Shown here in pieces: positions 25,058 to 35,047 of a stretch of DNA of 35,047 nucleotides. The notes beneath the pieces are model-generated. The model had not been told where the DNA came from and did not search any database. It was given only the letters and a program-made list of their open reading frames with translations. Each line of letters starts with the position of its first letter. Position 1 is the stretch's first letter. Position numbers and translations under genes: made by a program. The stretch comes from Caulobacteraceae bacterium (GTDB taxonomy: Bacteria; Pseudomonadota; Alphaproteobacteria; Caulobacterales; Caulobacteraceae), in NCBI GenBank assembly GCA_947452365.1, contig CANGCO010000018.1:1-35047 (forward strand), read 5' to 3'.

Positions 25058-25960
25058 TCAGTCCTTTTTCAGGGTTTCGGTCTGGCCGCTCAGCCAGGGC
25101 AGGACGGCCGAAAAATCGCGCTGAGCATAGCCTTGATTGGCAAACAAGGCATAGAGGGCTTCGGCCTGGGCCCCTAAGGGCGTTGAAGCCCCGGCCTTGG
25201 CGGCCGCTTCTTGCGCGAGTTTTAAGTCTTTCAGCATCATGGCTGTGGCAAAGCCGCCCTCATAGCCGCGATCGGCTGGGGTGGCTGGACCAATGCCCTC
25301 TACCGGGCAATAGGTGGTGAGCGACCAGCACTGGCCCGAGGATTTTGACGCTATCTCAAAAAATCGGTCCGCCTCTAGGCCCAGCTTATCGGCCAGGGCA
25401 AAGGCTTCACAGGTGCCGATCATGGAAATGCCTAGCAGCATATTGTTGCAGATCTTGGCCGCCTGCCCCGCGCCGCTGGCACCGGCATGGATGACAACCC
25501 GGGCCATGGGGGTGAGGGCGGCCTCAACGGCGGCAAAGTCTTTAGCCTCGCAACCGACCATAAAGGCTAGGCTTCCGGCGTCAGCGGCAGCCGTGCCGCC
25601 CGATACGGGCGCGTCCGCCGCACGCAGGCCTGAGCCCACGGCAAGGGCGGCCACAAAGCGGGCACTATCGACATCAATGGTCGAGCAATCAATCACCAGA
25701 GCGCCGGCCTGGCTATGGCCAACAATCTCCTCGGCATAGACACTGCGCACATGCTGGCCTGCAGGCAGCATGGTGATGACCACTTCGGCGTTCATAACCG
25801 CATCACGCACACTGCCAACCGGCGTGCAGCCTGCCTCGGCGGCGCGTTTTAGGGCCCCGGCGCTTAAGTCAAAGGCCAGCACCGTATGGCCAGCCTTGGC
25901 CTGGTTGGCCGCCATGCCAGCGCCCATATTGCCAAGTCCGATAAAGGCTATGCGGGTCAT
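25058..25960 (-). CDS. mmsB: 3-hydroxyisobutyrate dehydrogenase
   Basis: A 300-residue NAD-dependent beta-hydroxyacid dehydrogenase that oxidises 3-hydroxyisobutyrate to methylmalonate semialdehyde. The Rossmann motif is FIGLGNMGAGMA (6-17). The substrate loop is DAPVSGGTAAADAGSL (117-131). The catalytic Lys169 and Asn173 are in GQAAKICNNMLL. The ATG at 25960 overlaps the TGA of the preceding hydrolase gene (ATGA) and has GGAA six bases upstream. An ATG at 25972 is possible but has no properly spaced binding site. The operon position between the CoA hydrolase and hydratase genes confirms the valine role over the related glyoxylate or tartronate reductases. Confidence 0.94.
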   Translation of the reverse strand: MTRIAFIGLGNMGAGMAANQAKAGHTVLAFDLSAGALKRAAEAGCTPVGSVRDAVMNAEVVITMLPAGQHVRSVYAEEIVGHSQAGALVIDCSTIDVDSARFVAALAVGSGLRAADAPVSGGTAAADAGSLAFMVGCEAKDFAAVEAALTPMARVVIHAGASGAGQAAKICNNMLLGISMIGTCEAFALADKLGLEADRFFEIASKSSGQCWSLTTYCPVEGIGPATPADRGYEGGFATAMMLKDLKLAQEAAAKAGASTPLGAQAEALYALFANQGYAQRDFSAVLPWLSGQTETLKKD

Positions 25961-27015
25961 AGGGGTTTCCATTCCTGATCGGCGGGGAGGGGAGCAAAAA
26001 TACCGTCCAGCAGGGCGGTATCCACGTCTTGCAGCCTAGCGGGTGCCCAAACCGGGGCATTGTCCTTATCGAGGATCACAGCACGCACGCCTTCGGAAAA
26101 GTCATGGCGGTTAACCACACGGGCGCTGATCCGATATTCCATCGCTAGAACTTGCGCAAAATCGGTGGCCTTTGCCCCCGTCTGCATCTGACGAAGCGCA
26201 ACCTTTAGGGCCTGCGGCGACTTGGTCAGCAAGAGGGCGTGCTGTTGCCTAGCCCAGTCACTCTTGTCGGCGGCCAAACTGTCCATCACCGCCTCAACCG
26301 TTGGCACGGAAAAATGCGCGTCTATGGCGGCTTGATGAGCAGTAATCGGGGGTGGCCCGGGATCGCTTGAATGCGCGCTCAGGGCCTCACCCAGGCGATT
26401 TTGGCCTGTGCTTGCGATAAGATCGGCCTTGAAGGCCTCTAGCTGGGCGGTCGCGATATAGTGGGTCGTCAGGCCAAGGGCCATACAGTCGGCAGCCTTG
26501 AGGCGCGCGCCCGTCAGGCCCATCCAATACCCGGCAGCGCCGGGCAGGCGCGGCAGGTACCAGCCGCCGCCCACATCGGGAAAAAGACCAATCCCAGTTT
26601 CGGGCATGGCAAAGGTCGTGCGCTCTGTGGCAATCCGGACGCTGGCAGGCAGGGCAATCCCAACGCCGCCGCCCATGACTGTGCCGTCCATCACTGAAAT
26701 CACGGGCTTGGCATAGGCCTTGATCAGGTGGTCGAGCTGATACTCGATATAGAAAAAGGCCCGCGCCTCGACCCCGTCGGTCTGGACGCTCGTGGCCAGC
26801 ATGCGGATATCGCCGCCCGCACAAAAGCCGCGTGCGCCGGTGTGATCGAGCAGCACCATCTGAATGGCGTCATTCTCTCGCCAGTCTTGCAGCGCGGCGA
26901 TCATGATCTGGCACATATTGGTGGTCAGGGCATGCAGGGCATCTGGCCGGTTCAGGGTCAGGTGGCCAATCCCGTTCTGTACACGGACCAAGACTTCTGG
27001 GGCCGCATCGGTCAT
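25957..27015 (-). CDS. 3-hydroxyisobutyryl-CoA hydrolase
   Basis: A 352-residue crotonase-superfamily thioesterase that frees 3-hydroxyisobutyrate from CoA, avoiding build-up of reactive methacrylyl-CoA. The N-terminal crotonase fold carries [11 protein letters not shown] (63-73) and the oxyanion segment [12 protein letters not shown] (111-122). The hydrolase signature [23 protein letters not shown] runs over about 135-157, with Glu139 and Asp147 as the likely catalytic pair. The C-terminal extension of about 100 residues separates it from simple hydratases. It overlaps by 4 bases (ATGA) with the genes on both sides, indicating translational coupling. Confidence 0.93.
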
Positions 27016-28151
27016 TGGCGAAACAGCTCTCTGGAAATAATCACCCGCATGACCTCGTTTGTGCCCTCGAGGATCTGGTGCACGCGCAGGTCGCGGACAA
27101 TCCTCTCCAGCGGATAGTCGCGCAGATAGCCATAGCCGCCATGCAGTTGCAGCGCCTGATTGGCGACTTCAAACCCGGCATCGGTGGCATAGCGCTTGGC
27201 CATGGCGCAGTATTGGCTGGCCTTGGGGTGGCGGCTATCCATGGCATGGGCACCGCGATAGACCATCAGGCGCGCGGCCTCCAATTCGGTGGCCATATCG
27301 GCCATCTTGAACTGCAGGGCCTGAAAATCCTTTAAGGCATGACCAAATTGGTTGCGGGTCTCAAGATGGGCCTTGGCGGTTTCCAGCGCCAGACTAGCGC
27401 CGCCGAGCGAGCAGGCGGCAATGTTGAGCCGTCCACCATCTAGACCCATCATGGCAAAGCGAAAGCCTTCGCCCTCTGAGCCAATTCGATTTTCAACGGG
27501 GACCCGGACATTGTCGAAATTAACCATGGCTGTCGGCTGACTATTCCAGCCCATCTTGCGCTCATTGGCCCCAAACGACAGGCCGGGCGTGCCTTTTTCG
27601 ACCACCAGGGTGGATATACCCTTGGGGCCAGGCCCGCCTGTGCGCACCATGACCACATAGAGGTCTGACACGCCTGCGCCGGAGATAAACGCCTTGGCGC
27701 CATTGATCACATAATGATCACCGTCCAGATGCGCCTTGGTGGCTAGGCTTGCCGCATCAGAGCCCGCACCCGGCTCGGTCAGGCAATAGCTGGCAATCAA
27801 TTCCATGCAGGTTAGCCGCGGCAGGTATTTGGCCCGCAAGGCCTCAGAGCCAAACCGATCAATCATCCAGGACGCCATATTATGGATCGACATAAAGGCG
27901 GCGGTCGAGACATCGCCCTTGGACAAGGCCTCAAAAATGATCGCCGCGTCCAGCCGCCCAAGGCCAGAGCCGCCGACATCTTCGCGCACATAAATACCGG
28001 CAAAACCCAAGCTTGCGGCCTTGCGCATCACATCGACCGGAAAATGCGCCTCGGCATCCCACTGCGCTGAGAACGGTGCCATTTCTGCCGCTGCAAACGC
28101 TTCGGCGGCGTCCTGAATAGCGATCTGGTCTTCGCTTAGGGCAAAATCCAT
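27012..28151 (-). CDS. Isobutyryl-CoA dehydrogenase (ACAD8-like)
   Basis: A 379-residue acyl-CoA dehydrogenase forming methacrylyl-CoA from isobutyryl-CoA. Motifs: [14 protein letters not shown] (123-136), [18 protein letters not shown] (155-172, the variant typical of isobutyryl-CoA dehydrogenases), [14 protein letters not shown] (334-347) and the catalytic Glu362 in [10 protein letters not shown]. Unlike the dehydrogenase ending at 8945, the base is in the standard EGTNE position. It starts 7 bases after mmsA and overlaps the hydrolase gene by ATGA. Specificity is assigned from the operon as well as the sequence; 2-methylbutyryl-CoA is a possible second substrate. Confidence 0.92.
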
Positions 28152-28158
28152 GGCGGCC

Positions 28159-29655
28159 TCACTTCATGGTCGGAATGACAAAGGCGGAGTCTTCAACCGC
28201 CCCTTCGGGCCAGCGGGCGGTGATGGTCTTGACCTTGGTATAGAAGCGCACGCCCTCGGCCCCGTGCTGATTGGTGTCGCCAAACGCACTGCGCTTCCAG
28301 CCGCCAAAGCTGTGATAGGCCACCGGCACAGGGATGGGCACATTAATGCCCACCATGCCCACCTCAACCCGGGCGGCAAATTCGCGAGCGGCGCGGCCAT
28401 TGCGGGTAAAGATCGCCACGCCATTGCCGTATTGGTGATCGGACGGATAGGACAGGGCCTCTTCAAAGCTCTCGGCCCGCAGGATTTGCAAGACCGGGCC
28501 AAAGATTTCTTCCTGATAGGAGCGCATGCTTGGCTTGACCTGATCAAACAGGGTGGGGCCGATAAAGAAGCCCTTTTCAAAGCCTTGCAGGGCAAAGCCG
28601 CGGCCATCGACCACAAGCTCTGCGCCCTCATCGACGCCCATCTGGATATAGCTGGCAATCTTGTCGCGGTGGGCCGAAGACACGACCGGGCCATAATGGG
28701 CATTCACGTCAGACGAGACACCGATCTGTAGGGTCTGAATCTCTTCTAGCAGGCGCTCGCGCAAATCGTCGGCGGTCTTTTTGCCGACGGGCACCACCAC
28801 CGGCAGGGCCATGCAGCGCTCGCCCGCCGAGCCATAGGCCGCCCCGACCAGGTCCTTGACCGCCTGGTCCAGATCCGCATCGGGCAGGATAATGCCATGG
28901 TTCTTGGCCCCGCCCATGGCCTGGACGCGTTTGCCATTGGCCGTGCCGGTCGAATAGACATATTGGGCAATATCGGACGAGCCGACAAAGCTGACCGCCT
29001 TGATGGTCGGGTGATGCAAGATGGCATCCACGGCCGTCTTGTCGCCATGCACAACATTCAGCACGCCCGCGGGAGCGCCTGCCTCCATAAAGAGTTCGGC
29101 CAGCCGCACCGGCAAGGATGGATCGCGCTCAGAGGGCTTGAGAATAAAAGTATTGCCCGTGGCGATGGCAATGCCAAACATCCACATTGGGATCATGGCC
29201 GGGAAGTTGAACGGGGTAATCCCGGCGACCACGCCCAAGGGCTGGCGCATGGAATAGACGTCAATGCCGGGGCCTGCGCCCTCAGTGTATTCGCCCTTTA
29301 AGAGATGCGGAATGCCGCAGGCAAATTCGATCACTTCCAAGCCGCGCTGGATATCGCCCTTGGAATCGGCAATCACCTTGCCGTGCTCGCTAGATAGAAG
29401 CTCGGCCATCTCAGTCATATTGGCTTCGAGCAGGCGCTTGAACTCAAACATCACCCGGGCGCGGCGCTGGGGATTGGTCGCAGCCCAGCCGATTTGCGCG
29501 GCAGCCGCAGACTGGACGGCCAGGTCCATCTCCGCATCGGTGGCAAATTGAACTCGCGCCTGGACCTCGCCCGTATTGGGATTAAACACATCGCTAAACC
29601 GGCCTGACTTGCCGATCAGGGTTTGACCGTTAACAAAATGATGGATGTCGCGCAT
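28159..29655 (-). CDS. mmsA: CoA-acylating methylmalonate-semialdehyde dehydrogenase
   Basis: A 498-residue aldehyde dehydrogenase that converts methylmalonate semialdehyde plus CoA to propionyl-CoA and CO2. Landmarks: [16 protein letters not shown] (143-158, Asn150), ILKPSERDP (171-179, Lys173 contacting NAD) and the nucleophile Cys281 in GSAGERCMA. The general-base glutamate of hydrolytic aldehyde dehydrogenases is replaced in AMGGAKNHG (246-254), as expected for the CoA-acylating class. Length is standard. AGGAG lies seven bases before the ATG. It is the first gene of the five-gene valine operon and is divergent from a LysR gene. Confidence 0.96.
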
Positions 29656-31255: not shown

Positions 31256-32020
31256 ATGGCACATTTCAATTTCGGCGGTTTTGAGCTCCATTTTGAAGAC
31301 ACGGGCCCGGGGCCGGTAAATACGCTGGTGCTGGTGCATGGCTTTACCTCTAATGCGCATGAGAACTGGGGCCGCACCGGCTGGGTGCATGCGGCAAGGG
31401 TCAAGGGCCTGCGCTGTGTGACGCTGGACCTTCGTGGTCATGGCCAGAGCGCCAAGCCGCATGATCCGGCCGATTATGGCCGTGCCAATCTGGCGGGCGA
31501 TGTCTTGGCCCTGCTGGATCATTTGGGCTTAGAAAAAGTTGACTTGATGGGGTTTTCGCTGGGCGCGCATGTGGCGCTAGCCGCCGCCATGGCTGCGCCA
31601 CATAGGTTTTGGAACCTGATCCTTGGTGGTATTGGCGGGCGGATGCTGGAGGCGCGCCCGCGTGATGACGCCATGGCCCTGGCCATGGAGGCCGAGGATA
31701 TCGAAACCATTGCCGAGCCCTTGCATAAGAGCTTTCGTCAGTTTGCGGATGAACAGGGCGAGGACCGGCTGGCCTTGGCTGCGTGTATCCGCGGGCCTCA
31801 CACGCCGCTTGATCTGGACGCGCTGGAGACCTTGAGCGTGCCCACCCTTGTTGTGGCCGGATCGCGTGATGACCTGGCTGGTGATCCGCAGGCCCTGGCC
31901 GACAAGATTATGGGCGCTAGGGCTGTGCGCCTGCCCGGCTGTGACCATTTCTCAGCCATAGCGCATGGGCTCTACAAGGCCGCCGTGTTTGATTTTCTGG
32001 ATGGGGTTTTGGAAGACTAG
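31256..32020 (+). CDS. Alpha/beta-fold hydrolase
   Basis: A 254-residue alpha/beta hydrolase. The oxyanion segment is LVHGFTSN (26-33), the nucleophile Ser101 is in GFSLGAH, the acid is Asp205 or Asp206 in GSRDDLAGD, and His231 is in GCDHFSAI. LDLRGHGQS (58-65) is typical of esterase, haloperoxidase and ring-cleavage hydrolase relatives, so the substrate is not identifiable. It follows mobA after 40 bases. Its TAG stop interlocks with that of the convergent isochorismatase-like gene in CTAG at 32017-32020. Confidence 0.85.
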   Translation: MAHFNFGGFELHFEDTGPGPVNTLVLVHGFTSNAHENWGRTGWVHAARVKGLRCVTLDLRGHGQSAKPHDPADYGRANLAGDVLALLDHLGLEKVDLMGFSLGAHVALAAAMAAPHRFWNLILGGIGGRMLEARPRDDAMALAMEAEDIETIAEPLHKSFRQFADEQGEDRLALAACIRGPHTPLDLDALETLSVPTLVVAGSRDDLAGDPQALADKIMGARAVRLPGCDHFSAIAHGLYKAAVFDFLDGVLED

Positions 32021-32643
32021 CCTTCAATCAGGGCTAGGGCCTTTGCCTCATCGATCACCTCGGCATATTTGGCCTGGAGATCAAACAGATTGGATCCGTG
32101 CGGGCGTGGGTCGCGGTCGGCGCAGGCCTGGCGCACCACAAACGGCGCAAAGCCATGTTGCAGGGCATCTAGGGTCGTGGCCCGCACGCAGCCCGAGGTC
32201 GAAAACCCGCCAATCAGGACCGTATCAACCTTCATGGCCGCTAGGGTCGAGGCGAGGCTGGTGCCAAAAAACGCTGAGGCATATTGCTTAGTCACGATCA
32301 CGTCTTCGGATTGGGGCGCGATTTCGGCAGGAATGACGCCAAGCGGCGAGCCCGCATCAAAAGCCTTTAATGCCGGGACCTTTTGATAGAATAGACCGCC
32401 ATCGCGGCCGCCCGCGCCATAGACCACCTGGGTATAGATCACCGGAATGGATTTGGCCCGGCAGGCGGCTATCAGGCGGGCAAAGCAGGCCACGGCCTCT
32501 GCCCCGCCCAGATAGAGCGGCGAGGCGGGATCCAGATAGGCGGCGACGACATCGACGACGAGAAGGGCCGGACTGTGGCCAAACCGCAAATGGCCACCAA
32601 AGCCAGCCTTGGCATAGTCTGCATCGAGATCCGCCCCAGCCAT
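32017..32643 (-). CDS. Isochorismatase-fold amidohydrolase (N-carbamoylsarcosine amidase-like)
   Basis: A 208-residue cysteine hydrolase of the isochorismatase superfamily. The catalytic triad is complete: Asp31 (LLVVDVV), Lys119 (IVTKQYASAFFGT) and Cys152 (FSTSGCVRATTLDA). A catalytic cysteine identifies an amidase-type member such as N-carbamoylsarcosine amidase, maleamate amidase or nicotinamidase, rather than isochorismatase proper. The TSGCVRATTLDA form and the N-terminal helical extension favour the N-carbamoylsarcosine/maleamate group. It is the last gene of the operon, three bases after the CoA-transferase. The pairing with a hydantoinase B gene upstream supports hydrolysis of a carbamoyl- or amide-containing intermediate, as inference. 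Confidence 0.87.
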   Translation of the reverse strand: MAGADLDADYAKAGFGGHLRFGHSPALLVVDVVAAYLDPASPLYLGGAEAVACFARLIAACRAKSIPVIYTQVVYGAGGRDGGLFYQKVPALKAFDAGSPLGVIPAEIAPQSEDVIVTKQYASAFFGTSLASTLAAMKVDTVLIGGFSTSGCVRATTLDALQHGFAPFVVRQACADRDPRPHGSNLFDLQAKYAEVIDEAKALALIEG

Positions 32644-32646
32644 GGC

Positions 32647-33852
32647 CTAGATCAGGCCACGGGTCTTAAGGTCAGCGAGATCGGCGGGGCTTAGGCCAAG
32701 CACGCTGGAATAGATCTCGTCATTATCCTGGCCCACGGTTTGCGGCGCGATCGAGCGCACCACGCCAGGCGTCGCCGACAGTTTTGGAAACACGTTTTGC
32801 ATTTTCAGCGTGCCCCAGCGCGGATGCTCGACATCAATAATCGCCTCACGCGCAGCAAAGTGCGGATCGGCGAGCATTTCGGGTGCGCGATAAATCTTGC
32901 CCGCTGGCACCCCGGCCTTGATCATCTTGGCCTCTAGCTCATCGACCGTGAGGGTCTTGGTCCAGTCCTCGACCAGGGCGTCAAGCTCGAGCTGGTTCTT
33001 GCCGCGGCTGATATGGTCAATATAGCGCGGGTCCTTGGCCAGTTCTGGCCGTTCCATGGCATCGCACAGCCGGCCAAACACCGTGTCCTGATTGGCCCCG
33101 ATCAGATATTCGCCGTCGGAACACTTATAGACGTTCGAGGGCGCAATCCCGGGCAGGAAGGAGCCGGAACGCTCGCGAATATAGCCGGTAACCGAATAGT
33201 CCGGCACCATGCTTTCCATGACCTGTAGAACGGCTTCATAGAGCGAGGAATCGACCACCTGACCCTGGCCAGTCTGGTCGCGGTGACGCAAGGCCGCCAG
33301 TGCACCCAAGCAGCCATAGGTCGCGGCCAAAGAATCGCCGATGGAAATGCCCATGCGCGAGGGCGCGCGGTCCGGATCGCCGACAATATAACGCCAGCCG
33401 CCCATGGCCTCACCAATGCCGCCAAAGCCTGCCCGGTCCGAATAGGGGCCGGTCTGGCCATAGCCCGAGACCCGGACAATGATCAGGCCCGGATGGTCCT
33501 TCATCAAGGATTCGGGCGACAGGTTCCATTTTTCCAAGGTCCCTGGCCGGAAGTTTTCGATCAGAATATCGGCCTTGGCGATCAGACGCCTCGCCAGATC
33601 CTGACCTTCGGCGACGCGTAGGTCGGCCGAGACCGATTTTTTATTGCGCGCCACCACTTCCCACCAAAGGGGATAGTCACCCCGGCCCCAGGCCCGCATG
33701 GGATCGCCGGTCACGGGGGGTTCGATCTTGATGACCTCTGCCCCCATATCACCCAGCAATTGACCGCAGAAGGGACCCGCAATCAGCTGGCCCATTTCCA
33801 CAACCCGCAGACCCTTTAGGGGGCCGGTATTTGCAACCTTGACCTCAGACAC
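32647..33852 (-). CDS. CaiB/BaiF family III CoA-transferase
   Basis: A 401-residue family III CoA-transferase, which moves CoA between carboxylic acids through an enzyme aspartyl-CoA thioester. The start region GLRVVEMGQLIAGPFCGQLL and LGDMGAEVIKIE (33-44) are typical. NFRPGTLEKW (100-109), SGYGQTGPYSDR (129-140) and the catalytic Asp173 in SIGDSLAATYG complete the pattern. A GTG at 33852 is used as start; AGGA stands ten bases upstream, which is rather far. It lies 12 bases after the hydantoinase B gene and 3 bases before the isochorismatase-like gene, hence one operon. The acid it activates is unknown. Confidence 0.92.
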   Translation of the reverse strand: MSEVKVANTGPLKGLRVVEMGQLIAGPFCGQLLGDMGAEVIKIEPPVTGDPMRAWGRGDYPLWWEVVARNKKSVSADLRVAEGQDLARRLIAKADILIENFRPGTLEKWNLSPESLMKDHPGLIIVRVSGYGQTGPYSDRAGFGGIGEAMGGWRYIVGDPDRAPSRMGISIGDSLAATYGCLGALAALRHRDQTGQGQVVDSSLYEAVLQVMESMVPDYSVTGYIRERSGSFLPGIAPSNVYKCSDGEYLIGANQDTVFGRLCDAMERPELAKDPRYIDHISRGKNQLELDALVEDWTKTLTVDELEAKMIKAGVPAGKIYRAPEMLADPHFAAREAIIDVEHPRWGTLKMQNVFPKLSATPGVVRSIAPQTVGQDNDEIYSSVLGLSPADLADLKTRGLI

Positions 33853-33864
33853 TCAGTATACGTC

Positions 33865-35047
33865 CTATTCTGCAGCCATCTTGACGACTCGGTTGCGCCA
33901 GACAGGCTGAACCGGGGCGGGAAGGCCAGTGTCGGCTAGGCATGAGGCGCGCAGCTCATCAATCGATGGGCCACGGTCAAATAGTTGCAGGGGTCCGCGC
34001 TCAGAGCGCATCTTGGCCCGCAAGGCTTCGGTTGCTGCGGTATCAATACTGCCATCGGCATGGGCAACCACGCCAAAGCGCAGTGCACCCTCGACCGTCA
34101 CCAGGCCACGGGTGATTTCCAATCCGATCAGGTCGGTTTCGCGCTCGAGCGGATCGCCCCAGCCGCCGCCGCCCCAGGTGACAAAGTGCAGGACGTCGCC
34201 CTTTTCCACCTTGATACCATCGCATTTGGAAGCCAGCGGGATCTGCTCGCCCGAGACCTTGTCCAGACGCTTCCACGACCGCTCACCGGGCAGGCCGCCA
34301 TTCACGCCCCAAGGCGGGATGAACCAGCGGTCGTCATGAATGGCAATCGTGCCCGCTTCCAAGAAGCGATAGGTCATGTGAATGCCATTACCGCCGCGGA
34401 ACCGGCCCGCGCCGCCACTGTCGGCGACGCTTTCATACCGCTCAATGACCATGGGGAAATAGCGCTCAAGGAACTCGTTGGGCACATTGGTAAAGCCGGG
34501 CCACAAGGAGTGACCATCAGCACCGTCGCCGAACGGACGGCCGGGAATGCCGCCAAAGCCGATCTGGAACAGCTGGAACCATTCGCCCTTGCTGTCAAAG
34601 CCCGAAAACATCAGGTGCGGCGAGGACGAGAAGCCCGCAGCGCAAAGAAATTCTGGGGTCTTTTGGCCCAAGAGCGCACCCAGCACGTCAAAAATCCGGC
34701 CCAGAGCATGGGTGCGGCAAGACAGGGCGGCGGGGAATTTGGGCTTCAGCAATGAGCCTTCAGGGATGCGCACATCCACTAGGTCATAAAAGCCGTCATT
34801 GAACATGACCTGTGGGTCAAAGACCATGATCATATAGATGCCAAAGAACATCTTGAACATGTTCTCGTTCAAATAGAAATTGATCGAGCTGTCGGATTGA
34901 GGGTCCGTGCCGTCAAAGTCCAATATCACCCTGGAGCCTTCGCGCCACATGGTGCACTTGATCTTGAACGGGCCAGCGCCCTTGCCGTCGTCACAGATAA
35001 AGTCTTCGAAACTGACCTTTTCCTCGCCAATCGACATGGCCATCAAC
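33865..35047 (-). CDS. Hydantoinase B/oxoprolinase family protein (N-terminus outside window)
   Basis: The C-terminal 393 residues of a hydantoinase B (HyuB-type) subunit; the reading frame runs open to the window edge. Full members have about 550-600 residues, so roughly the first third is missing. Recognisable parts are DFDGTDPQ (44-51), FPAALSCRTHALGRI (104-118), DSGGAGRFRGG (210-220) and the C-terminal GGGGWGDPLERE (293-304), all typical of this ATP-dependent family. Relatives are N-methylhydantoinase, 5-oxoprolinase, acetone or acetophenone carboxylase and caprolactamase. The ATPase partner HyuA would be expected upstream beyond the edge. The first internal ATG codons near the edge are not the start. 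It heads the visible part of an operon with a CoA-transferase and an amidase. Confidence 0.9.
   Translation of the reverse strand, partial: LMAMSIGEEKVSFEDFICDDGKGAGPFKIKCTMWREGSRVILDFDGTDPQSDSSINFYLNENMFKMFFGIYMIMVFDPQVMFNDGFYDLVDVRIPEGSLLKPKFPAALSCRTHALGRIFDVLGALLGQKTPEFLCAAGFSSSPHLMFSGFDSKGEWFQLFQIGFGGIPGRPFGDGADGHSLWPGFTNVPNEFLERYFPMVIERYESVADSGGAGRFRGGNGIHMTYRFLEAGTIAIHDDRWFIPPWGVNGGLPGERSWKRLDKVSGEQIPLASKCDGIKVEKGDVLHFVTWGGGGWGDPLERETDLIGLEITRGLVTVEGALRFGVVAHADGSIDTAATEALRAKMRSERGPLQLFDRGPSIDELRASCLADTGLPAPVQPVWRNRVVKMAAE

Follow-up and report, generated by a model that had tools for sequence, protein, structure and literature searches.

A widespread HyuAB, amidase, CoA-transferase and lyase gene set in Caulobacteraceae and relatives, a new variant of known catabolic clusters with a possible role in cyclic-imide breakdown

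The breakdown of creatinine and N-methylhydantoin uses N-methylhydantoinase and N-carbamoylsarcosine amidohydrolase. Nicotinate fermentation contains the LeuCD-like 2,3-dimethylmaleate hydratase and a dimethylmalate lyase of the phosphoenolpyruvate (PEP) mutase/isocitrate lyase (ICL) family, and is not known to include ring opening by HyuAB. The citramalyl-CoA lyase of the itaconate/citramalate route is of the CitE type, and 3-hydroxy-3-methylglutaryl-CoA (HMG-CoA) lyase cleaves esters such as a tertiary 3-hydroxyacyl-CoA. Excerpts of published reports describe the metal ligands Asp41, His99, Asp102 and His124 of CapB and the ATP motifs of caprolactamase (PMC8453981), as well as the anaerobic indoleacetate pathway of Aromatoleum aromaticum with the hydantoinase-like IaaCE and the CoA-transferase IaaL (PMC8453981, PMC8360864). 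An excerpt of a third report covers itaconate/citramalate degradation (Ict, Ich, Ccl), in which citramalyl-CoA lyase gives acetyl-CoA and pyruvate (PMC12290011). Here a 35,047-nucleotide stretch of a Caulobacteraceae genome (assembly GCA_947452365.1, contig CANGCO010000018.1; hereafter the window) is compared with these systems. Its end carries genes for the B subunit of a hydantoinase/oxoprolinase-type enzyme (HyuB), a family III CoA-transferase (CoAT) and an isochorismatase-fold amidase (ISO). In relatives, the A subunit (HyuA) and a lyase of the HMG-CoA lyase family (HMGL) belong to the same set.

Each of these enzyme families and pairs of them are already known, and the five-enzyme set is a widespread new variant of known catabolic clusters. 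It shares the HyuA and HyuB subunits, the ATP-motif residues and the metal-ligand residues with CapAB, N-methylhydantoinase and 5-oxoprolinase. It differs from CapAB in scoring far below the equivalog cut-offs and in its linkage to genes for amidase, CoA-transferase and lyase. Creatinine breakdown likewise combines a hydantoinase-type enzyme with an isochorismatase-fold carbamoyl amidase, but the module adds a CoA-transferase and an HMG-CoA-lyase-type enzyme, and sarcosine would need neither. A hydantoinase-like hydrolase and a CoA-transferase are also shared with the indoleacetate pathway, where the transferase, according to the excerpts, acts on a substituted succinate (PMC8453981, PMC8360864). 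Unlike in the module, the mutase IaaGH and the dehydrogenase IaaF come next. Neither an amidase of the isochorismatase type nor an enzyme of the HMG-CoA lyase type is known to us in that pathway. An earlier note on this DNA, made from the sequence alone, had named no described pathway with a CoA-transferase between a hydantoinase and an N-carbamoylsarcosine amidase; the IaaCE/IaaL pair, a hydantoinase-like hydrolase and a CoA-transferase in one pathway, qualifies this statement.

As far as the excerpt goes, itaconate/citramalate degradation resembles the proposed module in that a succinyl-CoA-dependent CoA-transferase is followed by a lyase (PMC12290011). The module lyase, however, belongs to the HMGL family and would be fed by a ring-opening step. 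The hydratase and lyase families of nicotinate fermentation adjoin HyuAB in some relatives, whereas window-type loci use a CoA-transferase and an HMGL-type lyase instead. No description of the five-gene set was found in the open-licence literature, which leaves out most subscription papers, in line with the earlier note, which had proposed a candidate uncharacterised pathway. The set is common to Caulobacter, sphingomonads and other classes of the phylum, and a related hyuA-hyuB-amidase-lyase set is located on a haloarchaeal plasmid. This sharing implies a common environmental substrate with an unannotated breakdown, and the record labels 'hydantoinase' and 'N-carbamoylsarcosine amidohydrolase' may mislead.

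Gene order was compared in the best 80 of 438 relatives from a CoAT scan, mostly Caulobacteraceae and Sphingomonadales. These loci were picked by CoAT and their CoAT counts are therefore conditional. HyuB is present in 57 of them at a threshold of at least 500 bits. CoAT lies directly downstream of HyuB in 54 of the 57 and HyuA directly upstream in 47. The amidase is found within the stretch in 45 loci and directly after CoAT in 22, the HMG-CoA-lyase-family lyase in 47, and all five enzymes occur together in 40. A HyuA-HyuB-CoAT-amidase run with no other profiled gene between is present in 21 of the 80 loci. Neighbours up to 8 kb from HyuB were counted in the 54 loci where HyuB reaches 900 bits or more; 36 of these have a TonB receptor and 31 a GntR regulator. 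A transporter had been expected in the earlier note, and the outer-membrane TonB receptor takes this place in many loci. Carriers include Caulobacter zeae, C. endophyticus and C. radicis.

In two Sphingorhabdus loci (L055, L062) and in L201, the module lies beside genes for an FAD monooxygenase, an allantoinase-PuuE-like protein, an aldehyde dehydrogenase and an arylmalonate decarboxylase/EutA-like protein; L055 and L062 additionally have extra amidases and an enoyl-CoA hydratase. A cyanobacterial record (L026, Pseudanabaena biceps O153 scaffold31, 7328 bases) holds an alphaproteobacterial-type HyuB-CoAT pair, with CoAT 80% and HyuB 70% identical. Our guess is contamination by an associated bacterium.

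The window comprises contig C18 in full (the genome assembly has 2,588,825 bases in 133 contigs) and ends inside hyuB, which is therefore truncated at its 5' end. The Pfam profile is matched only from position 228 of 519, thus the N-terminal part is missing, and the apparent TTG start codon near 35046 is not a real start but marks the edge of the contig. The remaining part corresponds to residues 235–627 of an intact HyuB from the same genus (96% identity). The complete order within the genus (L021, L023) is a divergent lyase gene next to hyuA-hyuB-CoAT-ISO; in L023 the module is adjoined by a TonB receptor gene and a partial gene for a GntR regulator. The full set is present in genomes G002 and G003 and, split over two cut contigs, in G004, all of the same genus. 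An internal stop was reported in the lyase match of G004, but an intact open reading frame (ORF) of 313 aa was found, so the gene is not counted as a pseudogene. No close HyuA or HyuB was found in G001 and G006 (same genus, each 83% complete). The HyuA partner, whose absence upstream was to count against the earlier note's proposal, is present in relatives.

A second set of regions was selected by HyuB from genome samples of the class and the phylum. Here, 39 of 40 regions were scored (L199 was dropped with a HyuB score below 900), together with 17 of 20 HyuB-paralogue controls (three had no scorable HyuB). The G regions and the controls were hand-picked among the matches listed, and three genomes enter twice (G233, G315, G696). 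Within 8 kb of HyuB, the distant regions contain HyuA in 38 cases, ISO in 25, CoAT in 18 and the lyase in 17; LeuC, LeuD and a PrpB/PEP-mutase-type lyase (ICL) are found in 8 each. All 17 controls have HyuA and 3 have ISO, and CoAT, lyase, LeuC, LeuD and ICL are absent from this range. Over whole stretches, the controls and the distant regions compare as 1 vs 21 for CoAT, 1 vs 19 for the lyase, 1 vs 8 for ICL and 3 vs 26 for ISO. All five enzymes are still within the stretch in 15 of the 39 regions. Window-like HyuB is patchy at 1e-100 (32 of 385 class genomes and 14 of 398 phylum genomes, with the window genome in both). Three regions from other classes of the phylum, perhaps Gammaproteobacteria (L202, L204, L205), bring together CoAT, lyase, HyuA, HyuB, ISO, LeuC, LeuD and a TonB receptor; the regulator adjoining the L204 set has a PrpR_N domain. 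For the ICL-type proteins of L179, L188 and Natronomonas, the best model is methylisocitrate lyase, with scores below its cut-off.

Eight plasmid regions were compared in addition. All five enzymes are present in those of Novosphingobium capsulatum and, reordered, Acidiphilium multivorum. HyuAB and the amidase are found in N. resinovorum and in Natronomonas pharaonis PL131, in the latter followed by an ICL-type lyase. In two others, HyuAB is accompanied by an aldehyde dehydrogenase instead. A further region contains CoAT, lyase and amidase but lacks HyuAB, and in the last only the amidase is present. Plasmid pTM1 of Tistrella mobilis (L104, 315223–319835) carries CoAT, HMG-CoA lyase, a NIPSNAP protein, an amidase, an arylmalonate-decarboxylase-like gene and a GntR regulator without hyuAB, and may supply the same final steps by a different route. 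The plasmids of Sphingomonas JE1 (L102) and Sphingobium TomTYG65 (L107) encode HyuAB with HyuB about 69% identical to that of L021. In place of CoAT and the amidase they have FAD oxidoreductases, a zinc-binding dehydrogenase or quinone oxidoreductase and a succinate-semialdehyde dehydrogenase; their HyuAB possibly act on a different substrate.

Candidate catalytic residues are conserved throughout the aligned relatives, which were picked by their score and length. The HyuB residues matching Asp41, His99, Asp102 and His124 of CapB are present in 96 of 96 relatives and belong to the portion that the truncated window copy lacks. The residues of the DxGGTxxD and DxGGT motifs of HyuA are retained in 94 of 94. 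CoAT has a full-length CoA_transf_3 domain (409.8 bits), and its candidate catalytic residue Asp173 is found in 101 of 101. D31, K119 and C152 of ISO, which match the Asp-Lys-Cys triad of isochorismatase-like amidases, are present in 83 of 83. The fifth enzyme, found in relatives and not in the window, belongs to the HMG-CoA lyase family (L021 copy, PRK05692 score 289 with a cut-off of 246). All 74 members have R41, D42, H238, H240, C271 and N280, the residues expected for retro-Claisen cleavage.

N-methylhydantoinase is among the two nearest relatives of HyuAB in the PDB, and the nearest for HyuA; both subunits are also related to those of acetophenone and acetone carboxylases. The L021 proteins score higher with caprolactamase than with acetophenone carboxylase models (HyuA 532 vs 322 bits, HyuB 222 vs 141 bits). 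None of ISO, CoAT and HyuB of the window reaches any curated NCBIfam cut-off. That for caprolactamase is 1000, with scores of 83.7 for the window HyuB, 222.1 for L021 HyuB and 531.7 for L021 HyuA. Those for acetophenone carboxylase are 1250–1500, with scores of 56.6 for the window HyuB, 140.7 for L021 HyuB and 321.9 and 182.8 for L021 HyuA. Among the named family III activities (succinate-glutarate, mesaconate, oxalate, formyl, carnitine), the best score is 255 with an NCBIfam cut-off of 750. Therefore 'hydantoinase' and 'N-carbamoyl-amidase', the identities given in the earlier note, are family labels and not identified activities.

From the enzyme families, the conserved catalytic residues and the linkage seen in these sequences, we infer the order of steps, an imide as the ring type and the products. 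Our confidence in the resulting five-step scheme, which comprises imide opening, half-amide hydrolysis, CoA transfer and retro-Claisen cleavage, is evenly balanced; that the ring is of the (hydroxy)succinimide or maleimide type is a tentative assignment. The substrate would be taken up by the outer-membrane TonB receptor, with the GntR regulator in control. HyuA would activate the lactim form of the cyclic imide with ATP, and the ring would be opened to a half-amide at the metal site of HyuB. ISO may then hydrolyse the half-amide to a malate-type dicarboxylic acid. In some relatives a 2-substituted maleate would arise first and be hydrated by LeuCD-like enzymes. CoAT is predicted to transfer CoA from a donor such as succinyl-CoA, giving a 3-hydroxyacyl-CoA; the itaconate CoA-transferase is reported to activate (S)-citramalate from succinyl-CoA (PMC12290011). 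The HMG-CoA-lyase-family enzyme would finally cleave this ester by a retro-Claisen reaction, with a 2-oxo acid and either acetyl-CoA or a short acyl-CoA as products. A substituted malate may be the common intermediate, which would fit the LeuCD-like hydratases as well as the malate lyases. The earlier note had proposed opening, deamidation and activation in this sequence, which is plausible.

Recruitment of the same types of reaction around one HyuAB appears to have happened twice. Between the window type (window or L021) and L205, HyuB is 64% and HyuA 53% identical, compared with 27% for CoAT and 37% each for lyase and ISO. A single clade is rejected for both CoAT types (approximately unbiased (AU) test, p 1.0e-5) and for both lyase types (AU p 3.6e-4). 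The two types of CoAT and of lyase had, however, been told apart by hidden Markov model (HMM) score ahead of these tests, the outgroup has some long branches, and a further lyase homologue from the window genome (contig C75) is placed among the window-type lyases.

Several further points, together with the type splitting just named, weigh against the proposed scheme. The hyuA gene, the N-terminus of hyuB and a module-type lyase were not found in the assembly of the window genome; an assembly gap is the likely reason. The LeuC gene is single in the window genome and in 10 of the 14 HyuB-bearing genomes tested (window included). No dedicated LeuC was found in the window genome, and a maleimide route would there need either the housekeeping leucine hydratase or an already hydroxylated imide. 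The nearest PDB matches of ISO are about equally near: 26st (141.6 bits) is an N-carbamoylsarcosine amidohydrolase, and 3ot4/3uao (132.7 bits), a putative isochorismatase, is presumably maleamate amidohydrolase. The HMMs were trained on CoAT-selected loci, and the loci used to build the ICL profile were later counted with it. Control L226 holds CoAT and lyase just past the 8-kb limit, and control L230 holds ICL. For several controls, a close HyuB is present on the same contig; the controls are thus not fully independent. Seven of the 39 distant regions have neither ISO, the CoAT-lyase pair, LeuC nor ICL near, and seven others have ISO alone near HyuB. CoAT directly follows HyuB in only 3 of the 39 and the amidase does so in 8. 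The gene order that the earlier note expected to be conserved thus holds in Caulobacteraceae and Sphingomonadales but not in distant genomes, where the enzymes still cluster. Among the 23 CoAT-selected loci without HyuB, 13 have at least 3.4 kb upstream of CoAT, therefore CoAT can stand without HyuAB; nine begin within 0.7 kb of CoAT and are not countable as true absences, and one has a weak HyuB piece. CoAT must have another context in such loci; in L075 it is surrounded by genes resembling those for an FAD monooxygenase, an arylmalonate decarboxylase, a lyase and LeuCD. In G005 (contig C4, ~64800–66500; L245:6876–8459), an intact CoAT (92% identity) lies beside a 38-residue C-terminal HyuB remnant and two ISO remnants. 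This is module decay within the same genus, with CoAT outliving hyuB and ISO.

These last cases, and the separation of CoAT from HyuB in most distant regions, would suit a loose clustering without a single pathway, in which CoAT has a separate role. The position of CoAT directly after HyuB in nearly all CoAT-selected loci that have HyuB argues against this, as do the 18 of 39 distant regions with CoAT within 8 kb vs 0 of 17 controls (21 vs 1 over whole stretches), and we regard such clustering as improbable. A conversion of substituted hydantoins has more weight, yet is unlikely. HyuAB would open the ring to an N-carbamoyl acid and ISO would remove the carbamoyl group; a protein of the Asp/Glu/hydantoin racemase family would racemise the hydantoin, and CoAT and lyase would process the acid further. 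The best PDB match of ISO, the closeness of HyuAB to N-methylhydantoinase and a racemase-family neighbour (PF01177) in 13 of the 54 CoAT-selected HyuB regions are consistent with it. The amino acid released, however, would be no obvious substrate for a CoA-transferase or an HMG-CoA-lyase-type enzyme, and LeuCD hydratases adjoining HyuAB and ISO would be a misfit.

An oxindole or auxin-like substrate appears quite unlikely. HyuAB would open a (di)oxindole-3-acetate-type lactam to 2-(2-aminophenyl)malate or -succinate, CoAT would activate the product as IaaL does, and the lyase would release acetyl-CoA and an aryl-glyoxylate. A hydantoinase-like enzyme and a CoA-transferase do occur together in the excerpted indoleacetate pathway (PMC8453981, PMC8360864). 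The tertiary 3-hydroxyacyl-CoA would suit HMG-CoA lyase, and the three Caulobacter carriers named above are plant-associated by species name. Against this, no amide would be left for ISO and no substrate for LeuCD. The neighbour families identified include no recurring dioxygenase, ligase or mutase of the auxin pathway, but no search was aimed at these, and in one plasmid locus (L101) genes for an acyl-CoA synthetase and a cytochrome P450 lie close by. The kinship of HyuA and HyuB with acetophenone and acetone carboxylase subunits would allow HyuAB to be an ATP-dependent ketone carboxylase, with CoAT activating the beta-keto acid and ISO as a side activity. Scores to caprolactamase and N-methylhydantoinase are clearly higher, and ISO and the HMG-CoA lyase would be left unexplained; this reading is very improbable. 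Cyclic-imide opening is the preferred reading. A particular version of it, to which we give little credence, is an undescribed and widespread aerobic salvage of substituted maleimides and cyclic imides, including those from oxidised tetrapyrroles (chlorophyll, haem, bilins). After import by the TonB receptor, HyuAB would open the imide with ATP, ISO would remove ammonia and LeuCD-like enzymes would hydrate the maleate. The substituted malate would be cleaved by a PrpB-like lyase or by the CoAT/HMGL-type pair.

The three window genes are listed in Table 1. The earlier note had described three minus-strand genes spaced 12 and 3 bases apart, and ORFs, gaps and Pfam families are confirmed: 12 bases separate CoAT and HyuB (33853–33864) and 3 bases ISO and CoAT (32644–32646). 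In a codon comparison with L021 of the same genus, dN/dS is 0.04 for the HyuB part, 0.06 for CoAT and 0.13 for ISO, thus the genes are under purifying selection. The closest CoAT relatives among those listed are found in metagenome-assembled genomes of Caulobacteraceae; CoAT is 91% identical in L021–L023.

Table 1. Genes of the module in the window
Feature	Position	Strand	Remarks
Isochorismatase-fold amidase (ISO)	32017-32643	-	208 aa; Pfam Isochorismatase 6e-34
Family III (CaiB/BaiF) CoA-transferase (CoAT)	32647-33852	-	401 aa, GTG start; Pfam CoA_transf_3 1.4e-122
HyuB (hydantoinase B/oxoprolinase), C-terminal 393 residues	33865-35046	-	Pfam Hydantoinase_B 4.2e-78; gene leaves contig end

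The earlier note had further suggested that other genes of the window could continue the pathway by beta-oxidation. This was rejected because of matches to methylmalonate-semialdehyde dehydrogenase, 3-hydroxyisobutyryl-CoA hydrolase and 3-hydroxyisobutyrate dehydrogenase: the genes at 25058–29655 match valine degradation and are more than 2.3 kb away. None of the beta-oxidation clusters of the window recurs beside the module in the available flanks of L021 and L023, and the recurring fifth enzyme is instead the C-C lyase of the HMG-CoA lyase family. The valine-degradation set (25058–29655, minus strand) consists of 3-hydroxyisobutyrate dehydrogenase, 3-hydroxyisobutyryl-CoA hydrolase, an acyl-CoA dehydrogenase and methylmalonate-semialdehyde dehydrogenase. 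Adjacent to the module, a plus-strand alpha/beta hydrolase gene (31256–32020) converges on the ISO gene, and their ends overlap by 4 bases.

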